A DNA stretch of 64,000 bases from Rubrivivax sp. (GTDB lineage: Bacteria > Pseudomonadota > Gammaproteobacteria > Burkholderiales > Burkholderiaceae_C), in assembly GCA_026125665.1 (NCBI GenBank), contig JAHCKS010000013.1, positions 18,455-82,454 of the forward strand, given 5' to 3'. Shown in pieces: positions 22,494 through 44,617 of the stretch. The first letter of the stretch is position 1. The number at the start of each line of letters is the position of its first letter. The translations under genes and the position numbers were made by a program. The notes below the pieces were generated by a model. The model was given only the letters and a program-made list of their open reading frames with translations. It had not been told where the DNA came from and did no database searches.

Positions 22494-22788
22494 GCCGAGC
22501 CGGGTCAGCGCGGGTCCGCCCGCGCGTCATCGCATCGCGTCAGGCTCCGCGCCGCCGCAGCTCTTCTGCCGGGTGGCGGCCTCGCACGGGCGGGACATCC
22601 CATTGGAGCCACGGCGGTGGCGTGGGCGGCCGCTCACGCCCGCTGCGCGTGGCCGAGGCTTCTCTGCAGTCAGGTCGTCCTTGCCTGGCATTGCGGCAAG
22701 TCAACGGCAACGGCGACGGGGAAGTGCAGCATGGATTTGGTGTCGGCCAAGGGTGCCGATGCTCCTGGGTTCACTTCCGGAGCGAGAA

Positions 22789-24090
22789 ATGAAGTTCAGC
22801 AAGTCGATCTTCCTTCCGTTGTTGGTGGTTGCCGGTGCCGCATCGGCGGCCGATCCGGCGCGCATCGACTGGGGTCGCATCTCGGCGCAGCGTGTGCCGC
22901 TGTTCTACCCCGGCCAGTCGTCGTACGAGTGGGTGCGCAGCCCCGCTCACAAGGGCGCGGCGTCCCGGGTGGCCGGTGGGGAGGCCTGCACCTACTGCCA
23001 CGACGAGGCCGATGCAGAGAAGGACATGGGCGCCAAGATCGTCACGGGCGAGCGCCTCGAGCCGACGCCGGTGGCGGGCAAGAACGGCTTCATCGAGCTC
23101 CTGGTGCAGGCGGCCTACGACGACCGCAACGCCTACCTGCGGTTCCAGTGGAAGACCCACAACCCCTTCCCCGGCACCGAGCACCAGTTCCTGCGGTTCG
23201 ACGGCAAGGAGTGGAAGGTCCACGGCTATCCGAAGCTCGACCAGGTGGTGCGCGAAGGCAAGCAGCCCGGCATCTACGAAGATCGCATGTCGGTCATGAT
23301 CGACGACGGCAAGGTGCCGGGTTTCGCCAAGCAGGGCTGCTGGCTCACCTGCCACGACGGCCAGCGCGACATGCCCGGCCAGTTCACCAGGGACGAGGTG
23401 GCCGCCAACACGCTGCTGCAGGCGATCAAGCGCAACGACGTGCGCAAGTACCTGCCGGAGACCCGGCTCGACCCGGGCGACTGGAAGACGGGCAAGGCCG
23501 CCGACGAGATTGCCAGGATCAAGGCCGGCGGCGGTTTCGTCGACCTGATCCAGTGGCGGGCGCATCGCAGCCACGGCGTCGGCATGGCCGATGACGGGCA
23601 CGTGCTCGAGTTCCGCTACAGCGACGCCGGCAAGGACATGTTCTCCGGCAACTTCGACCGCGCGAGCAAGGCGCCCAGGTTCATGTGGGACGAGAAGAAG
23701 GTGGGCTACCGGTCGATCACGGCGGACCAGTTGCGCAAGGGTGAGCACTTCCTGGTGCGCGAGTCGAATGCCGTGCCGTTCGATCCGCGTGCGCCCTGGA
23801 AGGAAGGCGACCTGGTGCCGGACTACGTGCTCAGCCGCGCCGACGCACAGGGCTCGGCCGCCGACAACAACGCCATCGCCAGCTGGAAGGACGGCATGTG
23901 GACCGTTCTGCTGATCCGGCCGCTCGGGCTGGCGAACGCGGACGACAAGGCGCTGAAGCCGGGCGGGGTCTACAACGTGGGCTTCGCCGTGCACGACGAC
24001 AACATCACGACGCGCGGACACCACGTGTCGTTCGTCCGCACTCTGGGCCTCGGCGCGAAGGCCGACATCGAGGCCGTCAAGCTGCCTTGA
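22789..24090 (+). CDS. ethylbenzene dehydrogenase-related, c-type haem protein
   Basis: A 433-residue exported protein with signal peptide (about 1-21, AGAASAADP) and the ethylbenzene-dehydrogenase gamma-like haem-binding fold (C-terminal blocks WTVLLIRPLG and NVGFAVHDDN). It has a canonical c-haem site C67-T-Y-C-H71 and a second site C184-W-L-T-C-H189 with three rather than two residues between the cysteines. Relatives serve as periplasmic electron carriers for molybdenum oxidoreductases or nitrate/DMSO-type respiration. No molybdoenzyme gene is adjacent. About 295 bp of unassigned sequence precedes it, so it is probably transcribed separately from the enolase-family gene. Confidence 0.83.
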   Translation: MKFSKSIFLPLLVVAGAASAADPARIDWGRISAQRVPLFYPGQSSYEWVRSPAHKGAASRVAGGEACTYCHDEADAEKDMGAKIVTGERLEPTPVAGKNGFIELLVQAAYDDRNAYLRFQWKTHNPFPGTEHQFLRFDGKEWKVHGYPKLDQVVREGKQPGIYEDRMSVMIDDGKVPGFAKQGCWLTCHDGQRDMPGQFTRDEVAANTLLQAIKRNDVRKYLPETRLDPGDWKTGKAADEIARIKAGGGFVDLIQWRAHRSHGVGMADDGHVLEFRYSDAGKDMFSGNFDRASKAPRFMWDEKKVGYRSITADQLRKGEHFLVRESNAVPFDPRAPWKEGDLVPDYVLSRADAQGSAADNNAIASWKDGMWTVLLIRPLGLANADDKALKPGGVYNVGFAVHDDNITTRGHHVSFVRTLGLGAKADIEAVKLP

Positions 24091-26709: not shown

Positions 26710-26951
26710 TGAAGACCACCATCGAACTACCGGACGACCTTCTCGAGCGTGGCAAGGCGGTGGCGCGGCGCGAGAACTCCACGCTCAAGGCGCTCATCGA
26801 GGAAGGCCTTCGCCTTGCGCTTCGGGCGCGCACACGCAAGCGACCCGCGCCTTTTTCGGTGCAGCCGTTCCAGGGTGACGGCTTGTCGCCCGAGTTCGCA
26901 AGCGGCGGCTGGGAGAAGATTCGCGACGAGATCTACCGTGATCGCGGTTGA
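26709..26951 (+). CDS. vapB: VapB-family antitoxin (type II toxin-antitoxin)
   Basis: An 80-residue antitoxin. The N-terminus MKTTIELPDDLLERGKAVA is the ribbon-helix-helix-like DNA-binding motif of VapB antitoxins. The C-terminal part (about 45-80; FSVQPFQGDGLSPEFASGGW) is the flexible toxin-binding tail. An upstream in-frame start at 26688 would add seven residues but would place the operator inside the gene, so the ATG at 26709 is preferred. Its 3' end overlaps the toxin gene by 14 nt. Confidence 0.85.
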   Translation: MKTTIELPDDLLERGKAVARRENSTLKALIEEGLRLALRARTRKRPAPFSVQPFQGDGLSPEFASGGWEKIRDEIYRDRG

Positions 26952-27372
26952 CACGAACATCCTGGTCTATGCGCACCGGGCGGACTCGCCGTTTCACGAG
27001 CGCGCACGATCCGCACTCGAGTCACTCGCCGGCGGGGGTCGGGAGTGGGCCATTCCCTGGCCTTGCGCGCACGAATTCTTCGCGATCGTGACTCATCCTC
27101 GAATCTACAAGACCGCCACACCACCCGAAACGGCGTTTGCCCAACTGCGCGCCTTGCATGCGCTTGCCAGCCTTGCGTTCATCGCGGAAGCTGACGATCA
27201 CCTCGAGCGCCTCGAACCCTTGGCGCTGACCGCCAAGGCGCAAGGCAGTGCCATCCACGATGCGCGCATCGCCGCGATCTGCTTGTCGCACGGCGTGGCC
27301 GAACTGTGGTCGGCCGACCGCGACTTCGCCCGATTCCCGGCTCTGGCCGTCCGCAATCCTCTTGTCGCCTGA
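26938..27372 (+). CDS. vapC: VapC-family PIN-domain ribonuclease toxin
   Basis: A 144-residue PIN-domain endoribonuclease toxin. The acidic metal-binding residues are in order: Asp in VIAVDTNILVYAH (residue 5), Glu in CAHEFFAIV, Asp in IHDARIAAICL and Asp in WSADRDFARFP. VapC toxins cleave tRNA or rRNA and are neutralised by the cognate VapB. It starts at the GTG (26938) inside the end of vapB, so the two are translationally coupled. The pair is intact although flanked by gene fragments. Confidence 0.88.
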   Translation: MIAVDTNILVYAHRADSPFHERARSALESLAGGGREWAIPWPCAHEFFAIVTHPRIYKTATPPETAFAQLRALHALASLAFIAEADDHLERLEPLALTAKAQGSAIHDARIAAICLSHGVAELWSADRDFARFPALAVRNPLVA

Positions 27373-27642: not shown

Positions 27643-29160
27643 TCAAGCCAGCAACACCAGCGCCCCGCTCGTCGCCCTGCGCTCCAGCCGCGCATGCGCC
27701 TCGGCCGCGCCAGCCAGCGAGTGCCGTTCCACCGGCGGCAGCTTCAGCGTGCCATCGGCGAGCGCCGCCCACAGCCTCGTCGCGCGCCGCTCCAGCTCGC
27801 CGCGCGTGGCCACGTAGTCGAAGACCACCGGCCGCGAGAAGGTGATGCTCTTGGCCAGCAGCGCGTGCGTGTCCACCTGCGCCAGCGCGCCGGTGGCGTT
27901 GCCCAGGCTGATCCAGTGGCCGCGGCGGGCGAGTGCCGCGAGGTTCTCGTCGCGCGCGGCTTCGCCCAGGCCGTCGATCAGCACGTCGGCGCCGCTGCCG
28001 CCGGTGGCCTGCTTCACCGCGTCGGCGAAGCGGTAGCCGCGTTCGCCGAGGACGATGACGTGCTCGCAGCCATACTCGCGTGCGAGCCGCGCCTTCGCAT
28101 CGCTCGAGACGGTGCCGATGACGGTGGCGCCGAGCTTGCGCGCCCACGCGCACACGAGCAGACCGACGCCGCCCGCCGCCGCGTGCACGAGCAAGCGGGC
28201 GCCTGGGCCGCCGCGCGTGCCGCCACGGCGGTCGAGCTGCGCCAGGTCGTGCACCAGGACCTCGGCCGTCAGCCCCTTCAGCAGCAGCGCGGCGGCGGTC
28301 TCGTCTTCGACCGCGGGCGGCAGCCGCACCACCCAGTCGGCGGGCACGTTGCGCACGTGGCAGTAGCTGCCGGGCACCGGGCCGAGATAGGCGACGCGGT
28401 CGCCTTCGAGGAAACCGTGCACGCCCTCGCCGCAGTCGAGCACGCTGCCCGCGGCCTCCATGCCCGGCGTGCCCCCTTCGGCCAGCATCGCGGGGATCCA
28501 GCCGCGGCGCTGGTAGATGTCGATGAAGTTCACGCCGACGGCGCGCTGGCGGATGCGCACCTCGCCCGGGCCGGGGGCGGGGCAGTCGGCGTCTTCGAGC
28601 TGCATCTGCTCGGGCCCGCCATAACGCTTGACGACGACGCGGCGCGAGGCCACGGGCAGCGCGCGCGGCAGGGCCACCATCGCCGCATCGCGCGTCGAGC
28701 CGGGCGCGCGCAGGTCACCACCTTCGCGCAGATGCTTGCGCAGGTTCTCGAAGCCCGCCTCGTACACGCCCTGAGCCACCATGTCGGTGAGCTCGCGCTC
28801 CATGCCCGGCGGCGTGGCGAAGGTGCTCTCCCAGTGCCAGAAGGTGCGGTTGCCGTCGGTCACCGGCTTCAGCGTCACGGTGGCCACGTAGCGCTGCAGC
28901 GGCACGGTGGCTTCGACGATGCAGTAGGTGCTCTTCCAGTGGTGGTCGTCCAGCGTCAGCAGTTGCTCGCGGATGTGGTTGCCGTCCTTCAGGGTGAAGT
29001 TGCGCACGCAGCCGACCTGGTCGCTCTTCTCGCCGCGCTCGATGCGGCTCGTGTCCACCACGGCGTGCCACTGGTCGTGGCTGTTGAAGTCGCGGATGAC
29101 GGCCCAGACGCGCTCGATCGGCGCGTCGATGATGGTCGAGCGGACGACCCTCTGCAGCAC
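27643..29160 (-). CDS. SRPBCC domain fused to quinone oxidoreductase (MDR family)
   Basis: A 505-residue two-domain protein. Residues about 1-150 form a START/SRPBCC ligand-binding domain (STIIDAPIERVWAVIRDFNS, VGCVRNFTL). After a linker containing SRRVVVKRYGGPEQMQLED, residues about 172-505 form an NADPH:quinone oxidoreductase/zinc-independent alcohol-dehydrogenase domain. That domain has VGVNFIDIYQRRG, GMEAAGSVLDCGEGV and the dinucleotide loop HAAAGGVGLLVCAWARKLGA. These parts are normally separate proteins. The upstream neighbour, 7 bp away, is a stand-alone SRPBCC paralogue of the N-terminal domain. It is the last gene of the minus-strand cluster and is bounded by transposase debris. Confidence 0.87.
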   Translation of the reverse strand: MLQRVVRSTIIDAPIERVWAVIRDFNSHDQWHAVVDTSRIERGEKSDQVGCVRNFTLKDGNHIREQLLTLDDHHWKSTYCIVEATVPLQRYVATVTLKPVTDGNRTFWHWESTFATPPGMERELTDMVAQGVYEAGFENLRKHLREGGDLRAPGSTRDAAMVALPRALPVASRRVVVKRYGGPEQMQLEDADCPAPGPGEVRIRQRAVGVNFIDIYQRRGWIPAMLAEGGTPGMEAAGSVLDCGEGVHGFLEGDRVAYLGPVPGSYCHVRNVPADWVVRLPPAVEDETAAALLLKGLTAEVLVHDLAQLDRRGGTRGGPGARLLVHAAAGGVGLLVCAWARKLGATVIGTVSSDAKARLAREYGCEHVIVLGERGYRFADAVKQATGGSGADVLIDGLGEAARDENLAALARRGHWISLGNATGALAQVDTHALLAKSITFSRPVVFDYVATRGELERRATRLWAALADGTLKLPPVERHSLAGAAEAHARLERRATSGALVLLA

Positions 29161-29167
29161 GGTGGAG

Positions 29168-29608
29168 CTACCGACGCGAGAAGTGCCGCTTCAGTGCGTC
29201 GAAGCCGCCCTGGAAGACGCCGTTGCCGACGAGCTCGGTCAGCTCGTGCTCGCGGCCTTCGGCGCAGTCGAACTCGGCGCTCCACTCCGCGAACGTGCGC
29301 CCACCGTCGGTGACGGGCGAGAGCTTCAGCGTCGCCACGTAGTTGGCCACGCCCATCGGGCTTTCGAGGATCTCGTAGATGCAGGTGTAGTCGTAGTCGG
29401 AGAGCGCCAGCAGCCGCTCGCGGATCATGCCGCCTTCGCGCGTGTGGAAGTGGCGGATGCAGCCGACGCGGTCGGATGGTTCGTTGTTCTCGATGCGGCT
29501 GTCGGCGATGCCCGGGTGCCACAGCGGCAGCGCGTTGAAGTCGCGGATGCGGCCCCACACCGTGTCGGCGGCGGCATCGATGACGGAGGAGACGTAGACG
29601 CGGATCAT
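29168..29608 (-). CDS. SRPBCC (polyketide cyclase/START-like) family protein
   Basis: A 146-residue ligand-binding helix-grip protein: MIRVYVSSVIDAAADTVWGR, FNALPLWHPGIADSRIE, VGCIRHFHTREGG, and the long C-terminal helix region HELTELVGNGVFQGGFDALK. It closely parallels the N-terminal half of the next gene (shared VGC.R.F and GVFQGGFDALK/GVYEAGFENLR patterns), so the two domains arose by duplication. Such proteins bind hydrophobic ligands or act as aromatase/cyclase-like enzymes; a dehydratase-like or carrier role in the cluster is possible. The ATG at 29608 is used because earlier in-frame residues are Arg-rich and non-native. Confidence 0.82.
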   Translation of the reverse strand: MIRVYVSSVIDAAADTVWGRIRDFNALPLWHPGIADSRIENNEPSDRVGCIRHFHTREGGMIRERLLALSDYDYTCIYEILESPMGVANYVATLKLSPVTDGGRTFAEWSAEFDCAEGREHELTELVGNGVFQGGFDALKRHFSRR

Positions 29609-29627
29609 CGCTTCGGCGCCCGGGCGC

Positions 29628-31328
29628 TCACTCCTTCTTGGCCGGCCCGGCCGCCGGCGGCAGCGCCGCCGCGCCGCCCGCCGCACCGGCGGTGAGGCGC
29701 TGGATGTCGCCGCCCTCCAGCCCGATCTCGCGCAGCAGCTGGTCGACGATCGGCGCCTGCGCCCGGAAGCGCAGCGCCGAGTTCACCACGCTGTCGGCGA
29801 AGCCGGCGTTGTGGCCATTCTCCGAGGCGCCGCCCCCGCCGCCGCCGGCCAGGCCCTCGACGTGCAGGATCTTGATGCCCTCGATGCGCTCCATCGGGCG
29901 CACCGCCTCGCGGATGATGGCCTCGGCCTTGGCCACGAGCGCCAGGCGCAGCGCCGAGGCACGCGCCTCGGGGCTCAGCACGTTCTGCGCCTCGTTCATC
30001 ATGCGCGTCGCGTCGGCCTCGGCCTCGGCGCGGATGCGCGCGGCGATGGTGCGGATCTTCTCCGCGTCGGCGTCGGCTTCGGCCTGCGCGCGGATGGCGG
30101 CGCCGCGGTCCTCGCTCGCGGCCTTCTCGGCCTTGGCGGCGAGCGTCAGGCGCAGCGCCTCGCGTTCGGCGGCCTGGCGTGCACCGATGATCTCGATGGC
30201 CTTCTTGCGCTCGGCCATCTCGACCTCGCGCGCGGTGAACACCTTCTCCTCGGCGGCGACGGCCATCGCACGCGCCGCCTCGGCCTCGGCCAGCGCCTCG
30301 CTCTGCGCCTTGCTCGCGCGCGCGATGGCGATGGCGCGCTGCTGCTCGGCGAGCTCCAGCGCCTTGCGCCGCTCGATCTCGGCGGCCTGGATGGCGCGCT
30401 CCTTGCCGATGCGCTCCTGCTCGAGGCTCTGCTCGCTGCGGATGCGCGCCGCGTCGATGGCCTGCCGGGCGGTGATCTGCGCGCCTTCGGCGTCCTGCTC
30501 GCGCTGCGCGCGCTCGGCGGCCAGCTCGGCGCGCTGGCGCGCCCGTGCGATCTCCACCTCGCGCTGCTGCGTCAGGCGAGCCTGCTCGGCCTCGCGGTCG
30601 ATCTCCAGGCTCAGCTTCTCGGCCTCGAGGTTCTTGTTGCGGATGGCCACCAGCGTGTCCTGCTCGACGTCGTTGCGCTGCTTCTTGCGCCGCTCGATCT
30701 GCTCGGTCAGGCGCGTCAGGCCCTCGGCGTCGAAGGCGTTGCTCGGGTTGAAGAACTCCATCGCCGTCTGGTCGAGCTGCGTCAGGCTCGCGCTCTCGAG
30801 CTCCAGGCCGTTCTTCGTCAGGTCCTCGGCCACGGCCTCGCGCACGCGCTTCACGTAGCTGCCGCGCTTCTCGTGCAGCTCCTCCATCGTCATCTCGGCG
30901 GCGGCGGTGCGCAGCGCGTCGATGAACTTGCCCTCGACCAGCTCCTTCAGCTGCTCGGGCTCCATCGTGCGCAGGCCGAGCGTCTGTGCCGCCGCGGCCA
31001 CCGCGTCGGCGTTGGCGGCCACGCGCACGTAGAACTCGGCGATGACGTCCACGCGCATGCGGTCCTTCGTGATGAGCGCCTTGTCGCGGCCGCGGCTCAC
31101 CTCCAGGCGCAGCGTGTTCATGTTCACCGGGATCACGTCGTGCACGATCGGCAGCACGAAGGCGCCGCCGTCGAGCACCACCTTCTGCCCGCCGAGGCCC
31201 GTGCGCACGAACGCACGCTCCTTGGAGCTGCGCAGGTACAGCCAGTGCAGCAGCCACACGACGATGGCGACGACGATCGCGACGACGATCAGCGCGAGGA
31301 TGAAGCTGCCGAATTCAGCGCCGGTCAT
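29628..31328 (-). CDS. flotillin/YqiK-like SPFH domain protein
   Basis: A 566-residue membrane-anchored scaffold protein. One N-terminal transmembrane helix (about 8-28, FILALIVVAIVVAIVVWLL) is followed by an SPFH (stomatin/prohibitin/flotillin) domain (about 40-205). A very long Ala/Glu/Arg-rich coiled coil spans about 210-490, and a Gly/Ala-rich C-terminal tail includes SENGHNAGFADSVVNSALRF. This is the YqiK/FloT architecture, associated with functional membrane microdomains. It usually sits beside a yqiJ/NfeD-type gene, which is missing here. Instead it lies in a transporter/catabolic cluster, 46 bp after the TIM-barrel gene. Confidence 0.88.
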   Translation of the reverse strand: MTGAEFGSFILALIVVAIVVAIVVWLLHWLYLRSSKERAFVRTGLGGQKVVLDGGAFVLPIVHDVIPVNMNTLRLEVSRGRDKALITKDRMRVDVIAEFYVRVAANADAVAAAAQTLGLRTMEPEQLKELVEGKFIDALRTAAAEMTMEELHEKRGSYVKRVREAVAEDLTKNGLELESASLTQLDQTAMEFFNPSNAFDAEGLTRLTEQIERRKKQRNDVEQDTLVAIRNKNLEAEKLSLEIDREAEQARLTQQREVEIARARQRAELAAERAQREQDAEGAQITARQAIDAARIRSEQSLEQERIGKERAIQAAEIERRKALELAEQQRAIAIARASKAQSEALAEAEAARAMAVAAEEKVFTAREVEMAERKKAIEIIGARQAAEREALRLTLAAKAEKAASEDRGAAIRAQAEADADAEKIRTIAARIRAEAEADATRMMNEAQNVLSPEARASALRLALVAKAEAIIREAVRPMERIEGIKILHVEGLAGGGGGGASENGHNAGFADSVVNSALRFRAQAPIVDQLLREIGLEGGDIQRLTAGAAGGAAALPPAAGPAKKE

Positions 31329-31373: not shown

Positions 31374-32204
31374 TCATCGGGTCATCTGCGTGAACCGCCG
31401 CGTGGTCTCGGTCAGCGCCACCTCGGCGGGCAGGCGCTCCATCGAGCTGGCGCCATAGAAGCCGTGCACGCCGGGGCAGTGCCTGAGGATGTACTGCGCA
31501 TCGTCGGGCGTGGCAATGGGGCCGCCGTGGCACAGCACGATGACGTCGGGCTTGACGGCCTTGGCCTCGCCGGCCCAGGCGTTGATGGGGTCGACGCAGT
31601 CCTTCAGCTTCAGCGCCGTGCCGGCGCCGATGGTGCCGCCGGTGGTGAGGCCCATGTGGCACACGACGATGTCGGCGCCGGCCTTGGCCATGGCGCGCGC
31701 CTCTTCGGCGCCGAAGACGTACGGCGTGGTCAGCAGGTCGAGCGCGTGCGCGCGCTCGATCATCTCCACCTCGAGCCCGTAGCCCATGCCCGTTTCCTCG
31801 AGGTTGGCGCGGAAGGTGCCGTCGATGAGGCCGACGGTGGGGAAGTTCTGCACGCCGGAGAAGCCGAGGTCGATGAGGCGGCGGAGGAACTGGTCGGCGA
31901 TCATGAACGGATCGGTGCCGTTCACGCCGGCCAGCACCGGCGTGCGCCTGACCACCGGCAGCACCTCGCGCGCCATCTCGCAGACGATCTCGTTGGCGTT
32001 GCCGTAGGCCAGCACGCCGGCGAGCGAACCGCGCCCGGCCATGCGGTAGCGGCCCGAGTTGTAGATGACGATGAGGTCGATGCCGCCGGCTTCCTCGCAC
32101 TTGGCCGAAAGGCCCGTGCCGGCGCCGCCGCCGATGATGGGCCGGCCGGCGGCGATCTTCGCGTGCAGGCGGCCGAGCAGTTCGTGGCGGGCGATGCGGG
32201 GCAT
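31374..32204 (-). CDS. phosphoenolpyruvate hydrolase family TIM-barrel protein
   Basis: A 276-residue single-domain protein of the 'PEP hydrolase'/TIM-barrel signal-transduction family. Motifs: [63 protein letters not shown] and [10 protein letters not shown]. In tomato Tm-1 and many bacteria this domain is linked to the UPF0261 ATP-binding domain. Here that domain is the C-terminal half of the gene immediately upstream (24 bp), so the two proteins probably form a complex. The enzymatic activity of the family is not firmly established. ATG at 32204. Confidence 0.85.
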
Positions 32205-32227: not shown

Positions 32228-34513
32228 TCAGGCGCGGCGGGCGGAGTTGTCGTGCGCCGGCGCGATCTCGCGCCAGGCCGCCACCAGCGCGTCGGCGAAG
32301 GCCTCGTCGTTGATGTGGTGCGGCAGGCGCACGAGCTTGCGGTCGGCCCCGGCGCGGAAGCGCTGGGCGAGGGTGTCGAAGAGCGCGCGGTCGGCCTCGG
32401 GGTCGTGGAAGGGGCCGCCGGGCTTGTCGAGCGCCGAGACGCCGCCCTCGGGGATGAGGAAACGCACGGGCCCGCGCATCGCGTTGAGCTTGCCGGCGAT
32501 GAACTCGCCGATGGCGCGGCACTCGTCGGCGGTGGTGCGCATCAGCGTGACGTTGGCGTTGTGCCTGACGAGGCGCCGGCCGGCGTGGCGCGCGGGCACC
32601 GTGTCCCAGGCACCGAAGTTCACCATGTCGAGCGCGCCGCAGCTGCCGACGTACGGGACGGCGTGCCGAGCGAAGACGTCCAGTCGTGTCGGGCCGGCAC
32701 TGAGCACGCCGCCGCCGATCTCGTCGGCGATCTCGGTCGTGCTGACGTCGATGACGCCTTCGAGCAGGTGGCTCTCGGCGAGCTTCTCCATGCTCTGCCC
32801 GCCGGTGCCGGTGGCGTGGAAGACGAGGCAGTCGTAGGTGTCCGCCAGGCGTTTGGTCACCGCCTGCACGCAGGGCGTGGTGACGCCGAACATCGTCAGG
32901 CCGAGCGCGGGCTTGTGCACCGGCTGCGCCGCGCCGTCCGTCGCCGGCGCGTGCGTGATCATGCCGGCCAGCGCATGCGCGGCATTGGCCAGCACCTTCT
33001 CGCTGATGCGGTTGATGCCCTGCACGTCGGTCACCGAGTACATCATGCAGATGTCGCTCGGGCCGACGTAGGGGCGCGTGTCGCCGCTGGCCATGGTGCT
33101 GACCATCACCTTGGGCACGCCCACCGGCAGCGCGCGCATGGCCGGCGTGGCGAGCGAGGTGCCGCCCGAGCCGCCGGCGGAGACGAGGCCACCCAGGTCG
33201 CGCCGCGTGCGAATGAAGTGCTCGAAGGCGGTGGCCATCGCCGTGACGGCGCTGCCGCGCTCGCCGCTGAAGACCGCCGCTTCGCCCTGCGGGTGATGGC
33301 GCGCCACCTCGCGCGGGTGGATGCTCGCCGTGCTCGTCTTGCCGCTCGTCGAGAGGTCGACGGTGACGACGCGCAGGCCCAGCTTCTCGAGGCACTGGCG
33401 CAGGAAGAAGAGCTCGCGGCCCTTGGTGTCGAAGGTGCCGGCGACGTAGGCGGCGCGGCCGCTGGTGGCGGCCACGGGGAAGGGCAGCACCGTGCCGGCA
33501 GCCGGAACCGAAGGGGGCGGGCGCCGGCCGGCCGCGTCGGCCGCGCCATCGTCGCGAGGCCCGTCACCGCCGGGCAACGGCGCCGACGGCATCGGCGCCG
33601 CGGCCGACGCGGCGCTCCAGCGGTTGAAGCCGCCGCCGGCGCGCGGCGCCATGGCGTCGAGCGAGGGCCCGCCGCCCCCATGTTCGCGGCGCACGGTGTA
33701 CACGCGCGTCGGCGCGTCCGCCGCGGCCGGGGCCGGGGCCTCGGGTTCGGCGTCGTCGTCGCCCGGGCCGCTGCGCACGCCGAGCAGCCGCTCCTGCAGT
33801 GCGCGGTCGGCGGCGAGCTCGGCAGCCGGCATCAGCTCGGCGAGGCGGCCGTTGACCATCACGCCGATGCGGTCGGCCACGTCGAGCGCGACGCCGAGGT
33901 TCTGCTCGATCAGCAGCACGGCGATGTCGCCCTCGGCGGCGAGCTGGCGCAGCGCCTGCGCCACCTGCTCGACGATGACTGGCGCCAGCCCCTCGGTGGG
34001 CTCGTCCATCACCAGCAGCCGCGGCTGCAGCAGCAGCGCGCGGCCGATGGCCAGCATCTGCTGTTCGCCGCCGGAGAGCTGCGCGCCGCCATGGCCCTTG
34101 CGTTCGGCCAGGCGCGGGAACATCGAGTAGACGCGGTCGACCTCGCGCCGGTTCGCGGCGACGAGCTTCAGCGTCTCGTCCACCGAGAGACTCGGCCAGA
34201 CGCGCCGGCCCTGCGGCACGTAGGCGATGCCACGTTTCGTGATCTCGTTGGGGCTGCGGCCGAGGATCTCCTCGCCGAGCAGGCGAACGCTGCCGCTGGC
34301 CGAGCCGAGCGCGTGGATGAGCCCGGTGACGGTGTTGCACAGCGTCGTCTTGCCCATGCCGTTGCGGCCGACGACGCCGAGCACGCCGCGCTCGATGGCG
34401 AAGGCCACGCCCTGCAGCGCGTGGGCGCGGCCGTAGTAGACGTCCAGGCCCTCGACGACGAGCACCGGCGCCTTCACCGCCGGCGTGTCGGAGTGACGCG
34501 ACCAGAGGGCCAT
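32228..34513 (-). CDS. LivF-type ABC ATPase fused to Tm-1-like (UPF0261) ATP-binding domain
   Basis: A 761-residue fusion. Residues about 17-247 are a branched-chain amino acid-type ABC ATPase (LivF): Walker [10 protein letters not shown] (49-57), Q-loop [10 protein letters not shown], signature LSGGEQQ (146-152), Walker [11 protein letters not shown] (167-176) and a switch region with LLIEQN. Residues about 248-350 are a low-complexity Ala/Pro/Gly linker. Residues about 351-761 are a Tm-1-like/UPF0261 domain beginning [20 protein letters not shown], with [19 protein letters not shown] and [16 protein letters not shown]. The UPF0261 half of plant Tm-1 binds ATP. The start overlaps the livG stop codon (TGATG). 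The reading frame is continuous across the linker, with no stop or restart signal seen. Confidence 0.88.
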
Positions 34514-35352
34514 CAGTGTTTCCCGCCCATGTAGATCGCCTGCACCTGGGCGTCGTTCTCGATCTGCTCGGGCGTGCCCGTCTTCAGCACCTGGCCGTTG
34601 TGCATCACCGTCACCTTCTCGGTGACGCGCAGCGCGATGTCGAGATCGTGCTCGATGAGCACGAAGCTCATGTGTCCCGGCAGCGAGCGCAGCAGCGCCA
34701 CCAGCTCGCGCCGCTCGGCGGGCGACAGGCCGGCCGCCGGCTCGTCGAAGAGGATGAGGCGCGGCGCCCCGGCGAGCGCCATGCCGATCTCGAGCTGGCG
34801 CTGCTGGCCGTGCGCGAGGTTGGCCACCGTCTCGCCGGCGATGTGCGCCAGGCGCGCGCGCTCGAGCAGCTCGTCGGTGGCGCGCTGCGACGCGTGCGCC
34901 GGCCCGGGGCGGCGGAAGCTGTAGCGGCCGTTGGCCACGCCGCGCACCGCGAGGAAGAGGTTGTCGCGCACCGTGAGCTCGCGGAACAGCAGCGAGCTCT
35001 GGTAGGTGCGTCTGAGCCCCTTGCGGATGCGCTCGTGCGGCGGCAGCTCGGTGATGTCCTCGCCGAAGAAGCGGATGCGCCCGCTCGTGGGGGGGAAGTC
35101 GCCGGTGATGGCGTTGAACAGCGTCGTCTTGCCCGCCCCGTTGCTGCCCAGCACGGCGTACTTCTGGCCCGCGGCCACGCTCAGCGAGACATCGTCCACC
35201 GCGCGCAACGCGCCGAAGGCGCGCGTCACGTTCTCCAGCACCAGCGCGTCGTTGGAGGCGAGCGTCGAGGCCGAAGACGAAGGCGAGGGCGGCGCGCCGC
35301 GCACGAGTGCGCGCGCGGCGGCCGCCGGACGAAGCTGCGTGATCGAGGCCAT
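34513..35352 (-). CDS. livG: branched-chain amino acid-type ABC transporter ATPase (LivG)
   Basis: A 279-residue ATP-binding subunit of a hydrophobic amino acid transporter-type importer. Walker [10 protein letters not shown] (about 68-76), the Q-loop region [19 protein letters not shown], signature-like [12 protein letters not shown] (the LivG variant of LSGGQ), Walker [13 protein letters not shown] and the switch His in [10 protein letters not shown] are all present. About 35 N-terminal residues ([17 protein letters not shown]...) extend beyond the domain. It pairs with the LivF half of the following fusion to power the LivHM channel. A 48-bp dispersed repeat separates it from the substrate-binding protein gene. 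Confidence 0.9.
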
Positions 35353-35459: not shown

Positions 35460-36713
35460 TCACGGGCAGTTCGGCTCGTCGCGCGAGCCGATCTTGAACT
35501 GGTCCTTCGGGATGCCGAGCGTCTGCTCGACGTTGTCCACCTTGCGCAGCACGCGCGTCGACAGCTCGCCCTTGCCGTCCTTCACCACCTCGGTGACGAA
35601 GGTCGTGCCGATGGCCTGGCGGTTGCCGTCCAGCCGCACGGTGCCCGTGGGCATCTTCAGCTCGAGCTTGGCCAGGGCTTCGCGGTACTTCTTCTGGCCG
35701 TCGGAGAGGTCGCCCTTCACCGCCTCCAGCCCGTCGAGCGCGGCCTTCATGTTCGTGTAGTACACGAGCGCGAAGAGGCTCGGGCTCGGGTAGCCGCCCT
35801 TGCTCACAGGGAAGTGCTTCTGGTAGTCGGCGACGAAGGCCTTCCACTCGGCGCCGTCGTAGCTGTCGGCCAGCGGGCCGGCGGCGATCGTGCCCACCAG
35901 CGAGTCGCGCCGCTTGCCGCGGTAGTTCAGCACGTCCTGGCTGACGGTGATGCTGCCGCCCATCATCGGCTTGTCGCCGCCGGCGGCCTCGTACTGGTTG
36001 AGGAAGTTCACCGCGTCGGCGCCGCCGAGCACGACGAGCAGCGCGTCGACGTCCTTCGGGATGCGCGCGATGGTGCTGGCGTAGTCCTTGCCGCCCAGCG
36101 GCACCCAGGCCTTCACCGGCACCTTGCCGCCCAGGCGGCAGTACTCGGCCATGAAGCCCTGCACCTGGCTGTACGGGAAGGCGTAGTCCTCGGCGATGAC
36201 CATCACCTTCTTGTAGCCCTTGTCGATGGCCGCCTTGCCCAGGCCCACCATCCACTGCCCGCCTTCGGTGTTGAAGCGGAAGAAGTTCGGGCTCGGGTCG
36301 ACCAGCGTCGTGGCCTGCGCGCCGCTGCCGCCGTTGATGAAGGTGACACCCGGCTGGGTCTTGCTGTAGTTCTTGACGGCGATGCCCTCGCTGCCCGACA
36401 GCGGGCCGACCATGATGTCGACCTTGTCCTGCTCGACGAGCTTGCGCGTGGCGTTGACGGCCACGTCGGGGTTGGCGTTCGAGCTGGCCTTGATGATCTC
36501 GACCTTGCGCCCGCCGGCCATGCCGCCGCGCTGGATGAGCGCGAGCTCGGCGCCGCGCATGCCGTCGGCGCCGCCGGCCGCGAACGGGCCCTCGAGCGTG
36601 GCCAGCAGGCCGATCTTCACCGGGCCGCCCTGCGCCAGCGCGGCGCCCGACACGAGCATCGCCGCGGCGGCGCCGACGAGGGTACGCACCGCAATTCGCT
36701 TGTTCACTTTCAC
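35460..36713 (-). CDS. ABC transporter substrate-binding protein (LivK/Leu-Ile-Val type)
   Basis: A 417-residue periplasmic type I binding protein. A signal peptide (about 1-30, [14 protein letters not shown]) leads into the Leu/Ile/Val-binding fold: [47 protein letters not shown] and [11 protein letters not shown]. The start is a GTG at 36713 that overlaps the livM stop (GTGA) and follows GGAG by 6 nt; a second GTG at 36707 is the alternative. The ligand is unknown. The surrounding hydrolases suggest a non-amino-acid organic compound. Confidence 0.88.
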
Positions 36714-37858
36714 GCTTGTCTCCTGGGTTGCGAGGTTAGGGCTGCGCGTGGGCCGAAGCGCGAGCGAAGCTTCGCCCACAGCCCCAGCAGCCCGTCGGGG
36801 GAAAACAGCACGATGGCGAGGAAGACGACGCCGATGACGAGGTTGAAACGCTCGCGGTCGATGACGTCGATGGCGAAGGTCTGCAGCAGCACGAAGACGA
36901 TGGCGCCGAGGAAGGCGCCGATCGGGTGCCGCATGCCGCCGAGCACGGCAATGACGAGGATGTTGATGAGCCAGCCCGTGCCCACCGAGTTCGGCGAGAT
37001 GAGGCCGTTGTACCAGGTGAAGAGCACGCCGCCGACGGCGGCGACGAGGCCGGAGAGCGCGTAGGCGGCGACCCGGTGCGCGGTGACGTGGTAGCCGAGG
37101 GCGGCCATGCGCCGCGGGTTGTCGCGCACGCCCTGCATCGCGATGCCGAAGGGCGTGCGCACGAGCCACTTGACGAGCAGGTAGCCGGCGAGGCTCCAGA
37201 ACAGCGCGAGGAAGTAGAACGGCACGGGGTCGCGCCAGTTCACTTCGCCCACGGTGGGCGGATAGACCTTCTGGAAACCCTGGAAGCCGTTGAACAGCGA
37301 GTAGTTCTGCAGCACCAGGTAGTAGAACGCCACGCCGATGGCCAGCGTGATCATGATCGTGTAGATGCCCTCGGTGCGCACGGAGAGCCAGCCGATCAGC
37401 GTGGCGCAGGCGACCGAGATGGCGAGCGCGAACGGCACCACCACCCACCATGGCCAGCCGAGGCTGATGGCCTGTGCGCTGCCGCCGAGAATCGAGACGA
37501 CGTAGCCGGCGATGCCGGCCACCGTCATCTGCGCCAAGGAGACCATGCCGCCGTAGCCGCCGAGGAAGGTGAGCGACAGCGCGATCAGGCCGAGCGCCAG
37601 CGCCTGGCCGGCGATCTGGAAGGTGAAGAAGGGCGTGGCGACGAACGGGTAGATCAGCACGAACGCAAGCACGAAGACGTGGCGCGCGGAGAGGTGCGTC
37701 CAGAGGTACTTCAGCCAGCGGGGGGCGTCGCTGTGGGCGTAGGGGTCGGGGGCGGGCGCCGCCGGCGGCAGCGTGGCCACGGCCCTCGGCAGCGGCAGCG
37801 GCCGGGCCGCCGCGGCAAGGCCGGTGTTCATGGCACGGCGCCAGTAGGCTGCGCTCAT
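36710..37858 (-). CDS. livM: branched-chain amino acid-type ABC permease (LivM)
   Basis: A 382-residue inner-membrane permease with about ten transmembrane segments. Family features: the FLGGYGGMVSLAQMTVAGIAG block and the EAA-like loop GIAMQGVRDNPRRMAALGYH, followed by VAAYALSGLVAAVGGVLFTW. A 70-residue cytoplasmic N-terminal extension (MSAAYWRRAMNTGLAAA...) precedes the first span; an alternative ATG lies at 37831. Its stop overlaps the GTG of the binding-protein gene. A 314-bp structured repeat separates it from livH upstream. Confidence 0.9.
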   Translation of the reverse strand: MSAAYWRRAMNTGLAAAARPLPLPRAVATLPPAAPAPDPYAHSDAPRWLKYLWTHLSARHVFVLAFVLIYPFVATPFFTFQIAGQALALGLIALSLTFLGGYGGMVSLAQMTVAGIAGYVVSILGGSAQAISLGWPWWVVVPFALAISVACATLIGWLSVRTEGIYTIMITLAIGVAFYYLVLQNYSLFNGFQGFQKVYPPTVGEVNWRDPVPFYFLALFWSLAGYLLVKWLVRTPFGIAMQGVRDNPRRMAALGYHVTAHRVAAYALSGLVAAVGGVLFTWYNGLISPNSVGTGWLINILVIAVLGGMRHPIGAFLGAIVFVLLQTFAIDVIDRERFNLVIGVVFLAIVLFSPDGLLGLWAKLRSRFGPRAALTSQPRRQA

Positions 37859-37914
37859 GGTTGTGGCTCCCTGGCTGGCTGTCGTGGGGTTGATAGGCGA
37901 CGACCGGCCGCGCG

Positions 37915-38228
37915 AGGTCGTGGCGCGCCAAGGCCGACGGGTGGTCGGCTCCGCGAATGTCCTCTTCTGGCCGCCTGGCTCGCAAGCTCGCAAGGCGCCC
38001 AGATGCCCCCTTGATTTCGCTGCGCCGACCACCCGCCGTCCTTGGCGTGGGACCCGAGTCGGTCATCGAAGGAGCGGGCGCCACAGGGGGTGCCGGATCG
38101 GGACGGCGGGGCGCCCTGCGCGGCGAAATCAAGGGGGCATTCGAGTGACCAGCGCAGCTGGGCACTCGAAAGAGGACATTCGCGGCGCAGGGCGCCCCGG
38201 CGGCCCGATCCCGCCAACCCCGTCGAGA
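37915..38228. repeat. dispersed double-hairpin repeat, copy B
   Basis: Second copy of the element at 14965-15272, here inside the operon between livH and livM. Its second hairpin pairs 38096-38127 with 38179-38210 (29 of 32 positions). Compared with copy A, three of the four changed stem positions in the inner 20 bp are compensatory (T-A to C-G twice, T-A to G-C once). That suggests the folded structure is maintained. Confidence 0.8.
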
Positions 38229-38249: not shown

Positions 38250-39203
38250 TCATGCCGCCTTCCCCATGATCCCGCGCGGCCTGAACGCCAGCACCAGAAC
38301 CAGGATGACGAAGGTGAACACCACGCTGTAGGTCGGCGCGTAAGCGAGCCCGTACGTCTCCGCCAGCCCGAGGATCACCGCCCCGATCGCCGCGCCCACG
38401 ACGCTGCCCATGCCGCCGACGATGACCACCACCAGCGAGGCGAGCAAGAGCCGCGTGTCCTCGCCCGGCACCATCGACAGCTCCACCGCGCCGATCACGC
38501 CGCCGATGCCGGCCAGCCCCGCGCCGAGCATGAAGGTGACGGCGAAGACGAGGTTCACGTTGATGCCGGCCGCTGCCAGCATCGCGCGGTCGTCGACGCC
38601 GGCGCGGATCATCGCGCCGACCTTCGTTCGGTTGAGCAGCCACCACAGGAACACGCCGATGGCGATGCCGAAGCCGAGCAGCGACAGGCGATAGGCCGAG
38701 TAGGCGCGGATCACCGGGATGTCGCGGATAGGCCCCTGCAGCCACTCCGGCGCTTCCATCTGGTGCACCTGGCCGGTGAAGATCCACAGCAGGATGTCGG
38801 CGATGACGATCGACAGGCCGATCGTCACCATCGTCTGGCGCAGGTCCTGCCCCTGCATGTGGCGCAGGATCAGCACCTGGATCAGCAGGCCGGCGATCGC
38901 CGCGGCGAGGAAGCCGCCGGCCAGCGCCAGGATCCACCAGCCGGTCTGCTCGGCGATCGTGAAGGCGACGTAGCCGCCCAGCAGGTACAGCGAGCCGTGC
39001 GCGAGGTTGACGTTGCGCATGAGGCCGAAGACGAGCGTGAAGCCGCTGGCGACGATGAAGTACAGCGCTGCGAGCGTCAGGCCGTTCAGCAGCGTCAGCA
39101 GGTACAGGCGCGCGTTGTCCACCATCGCCCAGACGGAGAACACGGCGATCGGGCCGCCGATGAGCAGCCAGAGGAGCCAGCGGATGCGCTCGCTGCGGGT
39201 CAT
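38250..39203 (-). CDS. livH: branched-chain amino acid-type ABC permease (LivH)
   Basis: A 317-residue inner-membrane permease with about eight or nine hydrophobic spans. Family blocks: LLNGLTLAALYFIVASGFTL, FGLMRNVNLAHGSLYLLGGY, TIGLSIVIADILLW, the EAA-like loop GAMIRAGVDDRAMLAAAGIN, and VVVIVGGMGSVVGAAIGAVI. The ATG at 39203 is chosen; a GTG at 39212 would add three residues. It begins 28 bp after the amidohydrolase gene and is separated from its partner livM by repeat copy B. Confidence 0.92.
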   Translation of the reverse strand: MTRSERIRWLLWLLIGGPIAVFSVWAMVDNARLYLLTLLNGLTLAALYFIVASGFTLVFGLMRNVNLAHGSLYLLGGYVAFTIAEQTGWWILALAGGFLAAAIAGLLIQVLILRHMQGQDLRQTMVTIGLSIVIADILLWIFTGQVHQMEAPEWLQGPIRDIPVIRAYSAYRLSLLGFGIAIGVFLWWLLNRTKVGAMIRAGVDDRAMLAAAGINVNLVFAVTFMLGAGLAGIGGVIGAVELSMVPGEDTRLLLASLVVVIVGGMGSVVGAAIGAVILGLAETYGLAYAPTYSVVFTFVILVLVLAFRPRGIMGKAA

Positions 39204-39231
39204 CGCGGTCACGCGGCCTTCGGGGTTGGTT

Positions 39232-40518
39232 TCACGCTGCGCGCTCCCACACGCGCGAGGCCGCCACCGGCGGCTGCTTGGCGAACACGCCGTCCTTCAT
39301 CACCGCGAGGATGCGCTTGGGGTCGCGCAGGATCGCGAGGTTGGCCAGCGGGTCGCCGTCCACCAGCAGCAGGTCGGCGAGGTAGCCTTCCTTCACGAGG
39401 CCCAGCTCGTTCGGCCGCATCATGATCTGGCCGCCGTACAGCGTGCACGCGCGGATCGCCTCCATCGGCGTGAAGCCGAGGTGCCTGACGAAGAGCTCGA
39501 GGTCGCGCGCGTTCTGGTAGTGCGGGTTGAAGGCGAAGCCGTAGTCGCCGCCGGGCAGCACGCGCACGCCGCGCTTGTGCATCGCCTTCAGGCTTTCGCA
39601 GGCGGCGGCCCACTCCTCCTCGTAGCCCATCTTCACCGCCTGCTCGTGGCTGACGCCCCAGCGTTCGGCCTCCCACAGCAGTGCCCAGAGGATGCCGATG
39701 CCCGGGGCGACGAAGATGCGGTCCTTCGCCGCCTCGAGCATGTCCAGCGCCTCTTCGTCGGTGAAGCTGGCGTGGTAGATGAGCGTGATGCCGTGGCGCA
39801 GCGCCTGCTTCACGCTGGCGCACGAGCGCGCGTGCACGATGATGCGCCTGCCGCGCATCGTGACCTCTTCCACCGCGGCAGCGACTTCGGCGTCGGTCAT
39901 CCAGGTCGTCTTCGCGTCGGCGCCGGGCACGAAGTTGTCGCCGGAGATGTTGAGCTTGATGGAGTCGACGCCGTACTTCAGGAACATGCGCACGACGCGG
40001 CGCATGTCATCGGCGCCGTTGACCACCTGGCCGAAGCTGAAGTCGGGGAAGGGCAGGTGCGGCGGCATCTCGTCGCCCAGCCCCCCGGGCACGGTGATCT
40101 CCTGGCTGGCCGCCAGGTAGCGGGGCCCCGGGATCTGGCCGCTTTCGATGGCGTTGCGGATCACCACGTCCAGCCGCGGCTTGGCGCAGGCGGCACCGAG
40201 GCAGCTGGTGAAGCCGGCCTGCAGGTAGTTCTTCGCCACCTTCGCGGACCACAGCACGTGTTCCTCGAGCGGCATCGTCTGGATGGCGCCGAGCGTGGGT
40301 GCGTCGTTCCAGCTGAAGTGCGTGTGCGCCTCGCACATGCCGGGCATGAGCGTCGCGCCGGCGGCGTCGATGACAGTGGCGGTGCCGGGCGCGATCGGCG
40401 CCGTGCTGCGGCCGACCTGCCGGATGCGGTTGCCGCTGACCAGCACGCTGCCGGTGTAGGGCGCGTTCTGGCCCGTGCCGTCGAGGATGCGCACGTTGGT
40501 GAACAGGGTGTCGGCCAT
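39232..40518 (-). CDS. amidohydrolase family protein (paralogue 1)
   Basis: A 428-residue cytosolic metal-dependent hydrolase of the imidazolonepropionase/prolidase-like amidohydrolase group. Seen: beta-sandwich start TLFTNVRILDGTGQ, metal site EAHTHFSWND (H-x-H, about 65), the strand-4 SIKLNISGD with the bridging Lys, IIVHARSC and LIYHASFTDEEALDML His ligands, and LPGGDYGFAFNPH with the final Asp. The C-terminus returns to the sandwich (VKEGYLADLLLVDGDPLANL). It is clearly paralogous to the next upstream gene. Together with the transporter they suggest hydrolysis of an imported cyclic amide or ester. Confidence 0.87.
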   Translation of the reverse strand: MADTLFTNVRILDGTGQNAPYTGSVLVSGNRIRQVGRSTAPIAPGTATVIDAAGATLMPGMCEAHTHFSWNDAPTLGAIQTMPLEEHVLWSAKVAKNYLQAGFTSCLGAACAKPRLDVVIRNAIESGQIPGPRYLAASQEITVPGGLGDEMPPHLPFPDFSFGQVVNGADDMRRVVRMFLKYGVDSIKLNISGDNFVPGADAKTTWMTDAEVAAAVEEVTMRGRRIIVHARSCASVKQALRHGITLIYHASFTDEEALDMLEAAKDRIFVAPGIGILWALLWEAERWGVSHEQAVKMGYEEEWAAACESLKAMHKRGVRVLPGGDYGFAFNPHYQNARDLELFVRHLGFTPMEAIRACTLYGGQIMMRPNELGLVKEGYLADLLLVDGDPLANLAILRDPKRILAVMKDGVFAKQPPVAASRVWERAA

Positions 40519-40548: not shown

Positions 40549-41892
40549 TCAGGCGGCCCAGCGGGTCACCGTCGCCGGCGCGCCGTAGCGCGTGGCCCCG
40601 CCTGCCTGCCGCAGAGGCGGCGCGCGGTGGAACTCGCCGTCCTTCATCACGGCGAGGATGCGCTTCTTGTCCTGCAGGATCGTGATGTCGGAAAGCGGGT
40701 CGCCGTCGACGAGCAGGATGTCGGCCAGGCAGCCTTCGCGGATGTAGCCGATCTCCTTGTGACCATCGCGATTGAGGCCCATCATCGGCCCGCCCCACGC
40801 GGTGGCCGAGAGCAGCGCTTCCATCGTGCTCATTCCCACGTGCTTGACGAAGTACTCCAGGTCCTTCGCGTTGGTGCCGTGCGGCGTCCACGCGAAGCCG
40901 TAGTCGCCACCGGGCAGGATGCGGATGCCGCGCCGGCGCATCGCCTTCATGCTCTCGATGGCCGCCTCCAGCTCGCGGTGGTAGCCCATCTTCTTCGTCA
41001 CCTCGGGCGGCAGGCCCCAGGCGCTGGCGTGGTAGCTGGTGTTGATGAGCCACGCGAGGCCGGGGGCAACGAAGTGCTTGAACTTCGCCGCCTCGAGCAT
41101 GTCCAGCGCCTCCTCGTCGGTGAAGCTGGCGTGGTAGATGACCTCGATGCCCTGGCGCACGCACTCCTTGATCGACCAGGTGCTGCGCGCGTGCGCGGCG
41201 ACGCGCTTGCCCCAGCGGTGCGCCTCGTCGACGCAGACGGCCACCTCCTGCTCGGTGAACTGGCTCATCTCGCTGGGCATGCCGGTGATCGACTCGCCCG
41301 AGAGGTTGATCTTGATCTGGTCGACGCCGTACTTGGCGAACATGCGCACGCAGCGGCGCATCTCCTCGGCGCCGCTGACGATGGCGCCGAACGCGAACTC
41401 GTGCTGCGGCAGGTGCGGCGCCGTGGTGTCGCCGAGGCCGCCCGGCACGGTGATCTCCTGGCTGGCGGCGATGTAGCGCGGGCCGACGATGGTGCCGTCG
41501 TTGATGGCGTTCCGGATGACGACATCCAGGCGAGGCTTGGCGGTGGCGGCGCCGACGCAGCTCGTCCAGCCCATGTCGAGGTAGGTCCTGGCGACCTGCG
41601 CGCACCACAGGATGTGCTCCTCGGGCGGCATGCGCTGGATGCTGTCGAGCGTGGGCTGGTCGTTCCAGCTGAAGTGCGTGTGCGCCTCGACCATGCCGGG
41701 CATGAGGAAGGCACCGTTGCCGTCGATGACGGTGGCGCCGGCGACTGCCGATGCGGCGGGCGCGCCGCGCTGGCCGTAGGCTGTCCTGACGACGCGGGCG
41801 ATGCGGTTGCCGCTGACCAGCACGTCGCCGGTGAACGGCGTTTCGCCGCCGCCGTCGAAGATGCGCACGTTGGTGAAGAGGGTGTCGGCCAT
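40549..41892 (-). CDS. amidohydrolase family protein (paralogue 2)
   Basis: A 447-residue tandem paralogue of the preceding entry, sharing the MADTLFTNVRI start, VEAHTHFSWND metal site, QIKINLSGES, VIYHASFTDEEALDML and LPGGDYGFAWTPHG blocks. All expected metal ligands are present, so both copies look active. It differs mainly in the first 45 residues and the C-terminal 25. Duplication followed by divergence suggests two related substrates or sequential steps. The 30-bp spacing and same direction indicate one operon. Confidence 0.87.
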   Translation of the reverse strand: MADTLFTNVRIFDGGGETPFTGDVLVSGNRIARVVRTAYGQRGAPAASAVAGATVIDGNGAFLMPGMVEAHTHFSWNDQPTLDSIQRMPPEEHILWCAQVARTYLDMGWTSCVGAATAKPRLDVVIRNAINDGTIVGPRYIAASQEITVPGGLGDTTAPHLPQHEFAFGAIVSGAEEMRRCVRMFAKYGVDQIKINLSGESITGMPSEMSQFTEQEVAVCVDEAHRWGKRVAAHARSTWSIKECVRQGIEVIYHASFTDEEALDMLEAAKFKHFVAPGLAWLINTSYHASAWGLPPEVTKKMGYHRELEAAIESMKAMRRRGIRILPGGDYGFAWTPHGTNAKDLEYFVKHVGMSTMEALLSATAWGGPMMGLNRDGHKEIGYIREGCLADILLVDGDPLSDITILQDKKRILAVMKDGEFHRAPPLRQAGGATRYGAPATVTRWAA

Positions 41893-41929: not shown

Positions 41930-42742
41930 TCAGCGCACGCGCTCGAGGAAGTCGCGCAGCACGCGCTGCGATTCCGCCGTCCGTTCGAGCATCGGCCAGT
42001 GCCCGCAGCGCGAGAAGACCTCCAGCCGCGCCTGCGCCAGCCGTTCGACGAGCTGGCGCGCGCCCTGCAGCGGCGTCACCTGGTCCTCGTCGCCGTTGAC
42101 GACGAGCACCGGGCAGCGGATGAGCTCCAGCCGCGCGCTGCGCGCTTCGGCCAGCGCCTCGCAGTTGCGGGCGAACCCTTCCGCGTCCTGCGCGCCGACG
42201 ACCTCGCGCACGTAGGCCACGGTGACCGGCTGCGTCTCCTTCGTGCTGGTGCTGAGCGCGAAGTCGGCGATGCCTTCGGCGATGCCGAACATGCCCTGCT
42301 CGCGTGCCACCGGGGCGCGCCCGACCATGTTCTCGCGCATGCCTTGCGGCGGCTCGGCGAGTGCGCCGAACAGCGCCAGGCTGCGCACGAGCCCCGGCCA
42401 CTCGGCGGCGACGTGCTGCGCGATGATCGTGCCGAACGAGTGGCCGACGAAGTGCGCGCGGTGGATGCCGAGCGTCTCGCACACGCGCTTCAGCGCCTCG
42501 GCGTGCGTGGTGGTGCTGATGCGGCCGCGGTGCGGCGTGGCCTCGCCCAGCGCGTAGGCCTTGTGCGAACGGCCGGCACCGGGCAGCTCGGGCCGCACGC
42601 AGCGCCAGCGTGAAAGCGCGGGCAGCAGCGGCCCCCAGGTGTTGTGGCTGCCGCCGAGACCATGCACGAAGACGATCGTGTCGGCGCCCTCCGAGGCACC
42701 ACGCACGTCCACCGCCATGCGGTCGATCCACACGAGGCTCAT
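41930..42742 (-). CDS. alpha/beta fold hydrolase
   Basis: A 270-residue cytosolic hydrolase of the MhpC/BphD/3-oxoadipate-enol-lactonase-like group. The oxyanion HG motif is in VFVHGLGGSHNTWGP (about 25-39), the nucleophile in FVGHSFGTIIAQ (Ser about residue 99), the Asp in VVNGDEDQVTP (about 215) and the His in CGHWPMLE (about 245). Its start overlaps the stop of the FAH-family gene (ATGA). A meta-cleavage-type C-C hydrolase or esterase role fits the company of a FAH-family enzyme, but this is inference. Confidence 0.87.
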   Translation of the reverse strand: MSLVWIDRMAVDVRGASEGADTIVFVHGLGGSHNTWGPLLPALSRWRCVRPELPGAGRSHKAYALGEATPHRGRISTTTHAEALKRVCETLGIHRAHFVGHSFGTIIAQHVAAEWPGLVRSLALFGALAEPPQGMRENMVGRAPVAREQGMFGIAEGIADFALSTSTKETQPVTVAYVREVVGAQDAEGFARNCEALAEARSARLELIRCPVLVVNGDEDQVTPLQGARQLVERLAQARLEVFSRCGHWPMLERTAESQRVLRDFLERVR

Positions 42743-43632: not shown

Positions 43633-43694
43633 GGGTCCTGTCTCCGTACGGCAGCGTGCCCCTGGGCAACGGCCGGCACCCGTTCGAACCCGCA

Positions 43695-43710
43695 TGAGAC
43701 TTGTGTCTCA
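43695..43710. promoter_or_regulatory. palindromic operator candidate TGAGAC-N4-GTCTCA
   Basis: A perfect 6+6 inverted repeat with a 4-bp centre in the intergenic region between the FAH-family gene (minus) and the TetR-family gene (plus). Position and symmetry fit a TetR-type operator controlling both directions; it would overlap a possible -35 (TTGTGT, 43701-43706) of the regulator gene. Confidence 0.6.
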
Positions 43711-44550: not shown

Positions 44551-44617
44551 CCGCGAGGCGCCCGTGACCGTCGCCGCGGCGACGCCGGCGGTGCGCACCG
44601 ACGCCGACAATGCGGCG

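Follow-up and report, generated by a model that had tools for sequence, protein, structure and literature searches.

Why should the ATPase of an ATP-binding cassette (ABC) importer be made as one polypeptide with a putative small-molecule kinase? The question is raised by a gene located at 32228-34513 on the minus strand of a 64,000-nucleotide stretch of Rubrivivax sp. DNA (contig JAHCKS010000013.1, positions 18,455 to 82,454; hereafter the window), which encodes a 761-residue protein composed of a LivF-type ABC ATPase and a UPF0261 (Tm-1-like) domain. The answer proposed here is an ABC importer with a tethered small-molecule kinase that would phosphorylate its cargo, probably an aromatic compound, on entry, a proposal that in our judgement could go either way. 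To our knowledge, ABC importers release their cargo unchanged. If the proposal were true, an importer ATPase with the first catabolic enzyme attached to it would couple uptake and metabolism in a new way, of relevance to membrane-permeable aromatic compounds, which leak out unless they are modified, and the UPF0261/TIM-barrel pair behind plant Tm-1 would gain a set of partners and a setting in bacteria.

A LivF-type ATPase and a UPF0261 domain in one frame

The gene opens with ATG, closes with TGA and is read as one uninterrupted frame of 761 codons. Matches above cut-off to three Pfam families were found in its product, ABC_tran at residues 33-173, the UPF0261 N-terminal domain at 355-521 and UPF0261_C at 534-750, so that frame reading and Pfam both bear out the one open frame with two complete modules proposed in a preliminary description of this DNA. 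In the ABC domain (residues 1-250; 33764-34513, minus strand) the Walker A motif GRNGMGKT is at residue 49, the signature LSGGE at 146 and the Walker B motif LLVMDEP at 166, within one or two residues of the positions first given, and EQN occupies the H-loop place, as is usual for LivF. The best NCBIfam ABC matches, UrtE TIGR03410 and LivF NF008626, were both below their cut-offs. A dead ABC domain was considered and rejected, as the Walker A, signature and Walker B residues are invariant or near-invariant in a 75-row alignment.

The second domain (residues 349-761; 32231-33469, minus strand) belongs to UPF0261, with both Pfam domains of the family (PF06792 and PF23189) above cut-off and the Tm-1 fold. 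The domain is a putative small-molecule kinase; its ATP binding is likewise putative, 'Tm-1-like ATP-binding domain' being an annotation. In an AlphaFold2 model of the whole protein (mean predicted local distance difference test score, pLDDT, 83.6; predicted template modelling score, pTM, 0.56) both domains were well predicted. The protein resembles LivF in its ATPase motifs, its EQN and its place in a complete LivKHMGF operon, but LivF is a single domain, whereas here the chain continues past the ABC domain with a linker and a second domain of 410 residues. Most of the unfused LivF-like proteins examined end shortly past the aligned part.

The product of the fused gene is named 'ABC transporter permease' in both annotated records opened, so the fusion is easily overlooked. 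No description of a LivF-UPF0261 fusion was found in the open-licence literature searched, and the words 'ABC' and 'transporter' do not occur in the accessible part of the paper on UPF0261 evolution (PMC5028733). The component parts are already known.

Distribution and origin of the fusion

When the two-domain architecture was searched across genomes, as the preliminary description had advised, it proved to be widespread. That description had also named a stop or a split in relatives as a sign against one protein. In 89 of the loci L091-L237 a LivF-type domain immediately precedes UPF0261, at a distance of up to 700 bp, and in 86 of these both are read as one frame. The three separate pairs (L182, L137 and L233) have 48-55 bp between the aligned parts and no long linker, so a break was found in no gap of linker length. 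A sequencing or frame artefact was rejected by the single frame in 86 of the 89 loci, and a one-off fusion by the distribution over many loci. Because L091-L150 and L151-L230 partly overlap (for example, L097/L156 and L100/L165 seem to be identical contigs), the count of 86, like that of 84 fused loci used below, contains some repeats.

Genome searches with PF06792 gave matches above cut-off in 20 of 300 (order), 12 of 369 (class), 37 of 398 (phylum) and 27 of 200 (family) in overlapping samples, and among the loci from those searches 33 of 89 UPF0261 frames were fused to an ABC domain. The best 80 loci from a scan of named genomes comprised 58 fused, one split (L182) and 21 others, L155 being cut by a contig end; in this set the fused record titles span Alpha-, Beta- and Gammaproteobacteria, including Rubrivivax, Variovorax, Ramlibacter, Bradyrhizobium, Mesorhizobium, Bosea, Roseibium and Reyranella, together with metagenome-assembled genomes (MAGs) titled Gammaproteobacteria and Rokuibacteriota. 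A split linker suspected in Mesorhizobium (L196, L198) was rejected, since the apparent stop is the terminal stop and both genes are fused.

On UPF0261-domain trees the fused label requires 3-4 changes, whereas shuffled labels require about 28-43. One fused clade was not rejected (p of 0.70 in the approximately unbiased test), and the tree in which the fused rows were held together outscored the free search by 15.6 log units. The simplest reading, not a proven one, is that the fusion arose once and was then transferred, with few losses. The unfused rows found among fused ones in one tree were L155 (the contig-end cut), L222 (a long branch) and the pair L194 and L121. In a MAG titled Candidatus Rokuibacteriota (L170) the fused operon is nested among Burkholderiales and Reyranella sequences, a placement that may reflect either horizontal transfer or a mis-binned contig.

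A constrained linker with a fusion-specific motif

The linker (about residues 251-348; 33470-33763, minus strand) is disordered in the model, with pLDDT below 50 over residues 248-349. Its length ranged from 68 to 155 residues in 84 fused frames from L091-L230, which hold 81 distinct linkers. The figure of about 100 residues given earlier stands, but not the characterization as only low complexity, because a conserved motif, [TN]RW, lies inside. Its R298 and W299 (33617-33622, minus strand) are conserved in at least 90% of the 75-row alignment. The motif was present in 76 of the 81 distinct linkers, against a mean of 0.67 and never more than 3 in 200 shuffles, which ignore relatedness, so that the excess is not a probability. 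It is fusion-specific, being absent from the LivF-like tails and UPF0261 starts in 12 loci with unfused genes, and outside it the linker is hardly alignable by eye between the alpha and beta groups.

The ratio of non-synonymous to synonymous substitution rates (dN/dS) of the linker was below 1 in 11 of 11 close pairs, with no significance test applied, and its dN exceeded that of either domain in all of them. No in-frame stop occurs in the 84 fused linkers, against 145.4 expected from base shuffles, these frames having been pre-selected as open; for that reason the fair count is 86 of 89. The other two forward frames hold a stop in 54 and 50 of the 84 linkers. No purine-rich ribosome-binding stretch was seen by eye before in-frame start codons of the linker.

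These data bear on the possibility that neighbouring operon genes merged passively, leaving the halves independent, with the join only fixing expression or stoichiometry. Unfused genes placed side by side agree with it: in Thermomicrobium two Liv permeases, LivK, LivG and LivF are followed after 12 bp by UPF0261 and then the TIM barrel, the same Liv-UPF0261-TIM-barrel order is found at L137, and in Tagaea (L182) LivF and UPF0261 share one frame with one stop between them, the TIM barrel being earlier in the cluster. So does a linker that is disordered and the most variable part of the protein. Against it, this long linker keeps its fusion-specific motif over deep divergence and re-splitting is hardly seen, the four unfused rows named above being the only ones among the fused in that tree. 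A merely passive fusion is on balance unlikely. The Tagaea (L182:9100-11200) and Thermomicrobium (L233) loci may be described as near-fusions, with the same frame, a single stop, a short gap and no long linker.

The UPF0261 domain compared with known proteins

The only solved bacterial UPF0261 protein found was Saro_1862 of Novosphingobium aromaticivorans (PDB 9mpy), which has acetovanillone bound. The UPF0261 domain of the fusion is homologous to it over its whole length, and to Tm-1. From the accessible part of PMC13101465, MarK is reported as a single-component acetovanillone kinase of the same species. The ligand of 9mpy and this report make a metabolic kinase more likely than a sensor. 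In the preliminary suggestion that transport is coupled to sensing or processing, the coupling is a sensible inference, and processing fits better than sensing.

Saro_1862 stands alone, in contrast to the fused domain studied here. Its look-alike at L141, which like other distant rows keeps the core residues, stands at the head of a matching operon that includes a three-component biotin carboxylase; no such carboxylase is among the annotated genes of the window operon. HpeHI and AcvAB are alike in the proposed role, the phosphorylation of aromatic ketones at the start of catabolism, but they are two-component hydroxyphenylethanone kinases for which no transporter fusion is described in the accessible parts of the sources (PMC12167813, PMC13101465). 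In tomato Tm-1 (PDB 3wrw, 3wrx and 3wry) UPF0261 and a TIM barrel form one chain without an ABC ATPase, whereas in the window the ABC ATPase is present and the TIM barrel is a separate gene. According to the part of PMC5028733 available, the UPF0261 and TIM-barrel families co-evolve, and plants reportedly built the antiviral Tm-1 from this pair by gene transfer and fusion.

The operon and its conserved neighbours

The operon is on the minus strand throughout, and its genes were assigned by Pfam or domain matches unless otherwise stated. It begins with a fumarylacetoacetate-hydrolase-family (FAA) enzyme (42739-43695), an alpha/beta hydrolase (41930-42742, from frame reading; the Variovorax gene at the same place is annotated alpha/beta fold hydrolase) and two amidohydrolases, AH2 (40549-41892) and AH1 (39232-40518). 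The transport genes follow: a LivH-type permease (38250-39212), a LivM-type permease (36710-38032; the listed GTG probably precedes the real start), a LivK-type periplasmic substrate-binding protein (Peripla_BP_6, 35460-36713) and a LivG-type ABC ATPase (34513-35352), whose TGA overlaps the ATG of the fusion by one base at 34513 (ATGA). No second LivF-type ATPase was seen beside LivG in the window operon. After the fusion come a PEP_hydrolase-type TIM-barrel protein of 276 residues, the UPF0261 partner (31374-32204), a flotillin with Band_7 and Flot domains (29628-31328), an SRPBCC protein (Polyketide_cyc2, 29168-29686, again with a real start probably beyond the listed GTG) and a zinc-type alcohol/quinone oxidoreductase with a fused SRPBCC domain (27643-29160; annotated in Variovorax as SRPBCC family protein). 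Between the fusion and the TIM-barrel gene that follows it lie 23 bp, in agreement with the original claim that this partner is the next gene.

Neighbours within 9 kb were counted where the sequence extended at least 6 kb downstream and 5.5 kb upstream, a condition that retained 70 of 84 fused and 48 of 56 solo loci; the rest were dropped. LivG, LivH, LivM and the periplasmic binding protein were each present in 69 or 70 of the 70 fused loci, as in the window. Flotillin was found in 69 fused and none of the solo loci, SRPBCC in 68 versus 18, and amidohydrolases of the AH1/AH2 type in 47 versus none. FAA hydrolase was found in 18 versus one, a low count due partly to the position of the gene near the 9-kb limit. 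The constant company therefore consists of the Liv genes, flotillin and SRPBCC, but not the hydrolases. The operon flotillins range from 566 to 1129 residues (window 29628-31328; L109:5261-8164; L181:12080-14134; L232:13072-16461), and in some relatives long stretches between Band_7 and Flot match no Pfam family.

The TIM barrel was near UPF0261 in 59 of the 70 fused and 38 of the 48 solo loci, and it ranks among the best-conserved operon proteins. Together with the reported co-evolution of both families (PMC5028733, in part), this favours a two-protein enzyme, for example ATP-dependent and bond-cleaving or activating, in which UPF0261 would have no free kinase activity and the fusion would anchor the enzyme to the importer. 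L141 and most distant UPF0261 loci speak against it, as no PEP_hydrolase-type TIM-barrel gene lies within 9 kb of them and UPF0261 can thus probably work alone. Such an enzyme is a rather unlikely alternative.

Some ABC ATPases bear C-terminal regulatory domains, and UPF0261 could likewise bind ATP and a pathway metabolite and gate the transporter. PEP_hydrolase-type domains are N-terminal in a sigma-54/Fis regulator (L137:2579-4297) and a Fis-type protein (L181:998-2731), both encoded near UPF0261 operons and separate from the UPF0261 protein, so that the barrel probably binds a pathway metabolite and the UPF0261/TIM-barrel module family can act in sensing. The direct inhibition of virus RNA replication by plant Tm-1 (PMC5028733, accessible part) points in the same direction. 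Yet the regulator version uses the TIM barrel and not UPF0261, the latter also occurs in catabolic-looking operons without ABC fusion, one of them with a carboxylase, and the ligand of 9mpy is a catabolic substrate, which leaves a gating role improbable. All these alternatives partly overlap with the tethered kinase, and their probabilities need not sum to one.

Proposed mechanism

In the tethered-kinase proposal the fusion would be the LivF-position ATPase of a LivKHMGF importer, bearing an ATP-dependent UPF0261 kinase on a flexible tether. The cargo is probably an aromatic or other carbonyl compound. LivK would bind it, LivG and LivF as a pair would drive its passage through LivHM, and the tethered kinase would phosphorylate it near the cytoplasmic mouth of the transporter. 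Phosphorylation would trap the cargo, which would then pass to the TIM barrel of PEP_hydrolase type and to further enzymes of the operon. With one LivF per transporter, one kinase domain per importer is expected. An aromatic substrate is suggested by the operon SRPBCC, by molybdenum-hydroxylase genes in other fused operons and by a ring-hydroxylating dioxygenase near the Variovorax copy. Import and the first chemical step may thus be physically coupled in several bacterial groups. The phosphotransferase system is a vectorial phosphorylation system, and it shares with our proposal the idea of modifying cargo at entry, although the proteins and the phosphate source are different.

The linker motif and the operon flotillin further suggest a docked, membrane-clustered assembly. 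A whole importer family with vectorial phosphorylation, in which the tethered kinase docks through [TN]RW and the TIM barrel is held in flotillin-organised clusters, is a more doubtful extension.

Several observations weigh against the proposal. The identification of MarK with Saro_1862 is drawn from the title of the PDB entry, the species, the ligand and the logic of the operon; sequence identity between the UPF0261 domain of the fusion and Saro_1862 is only about one third, and of the 105 invariant positions of the fused domain 45 are retained in no more than two of nine distant rows, so the substrate, and even the reaction, may differ. The model gives no defined domain arrangement (linker pLDDT below 50, pTM 0.56). 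RW is absent from five of the 81 linkers (L157, L160, L166, L173 and L116), and flotillin presence and the linker motif may reflect a single evolutionary event; well-supported branches also force at least two label changes in two trees and at least one in another. Neither a biotin carboxylase nor a phosphatase is among the annotated genes of the window operon. A histidine-phosphatase-family gene lies beyond its divergent end (44468-45286, plus strand), and it had no match in L091-L237, many of these stretches ending too early. Eleven of the 70 fused loci (the Mesorhizobium type and L213) have no nearby TIM barrel. In a genome-wide search, which covered those 11 except L196, L198 and L213, the barrel was found elsewhere in eight of eight genomes (G708, G770 and those behind L188, L189, L192, L214, L220 and L225).

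Other features

Unfused UPF0261 genes are found in other transport settings, near Liv genes at L134, L208 and L226 and beside a sugar-type ABC system in Sinorhizobium fredii NGR234. The unfused Liv-UPF0261-TIM-barrel stretch on the Thermomicrobium roseum plasmid (L233:12371-13342) further includes genes for a PPDK_N protein and for a PEP-utilizing enzyme, a pair reminiscent of the two-component aromatic kinase HpeHI. On the plus strand of the window there are also a second Liv/urea-type ABC importer (47055-52179; Peripla_BP_5, permease and ABC ATPase), an Ethylbenzene-dehydrogenase-type domain (EB_dh, 22378-24090; the listed frame start is probably too early), a PIN-domain protein with a probably over-extended start (26749-27372) and a protein matching FRG1-like, ricin-type lectin and fascin (17944-20343).
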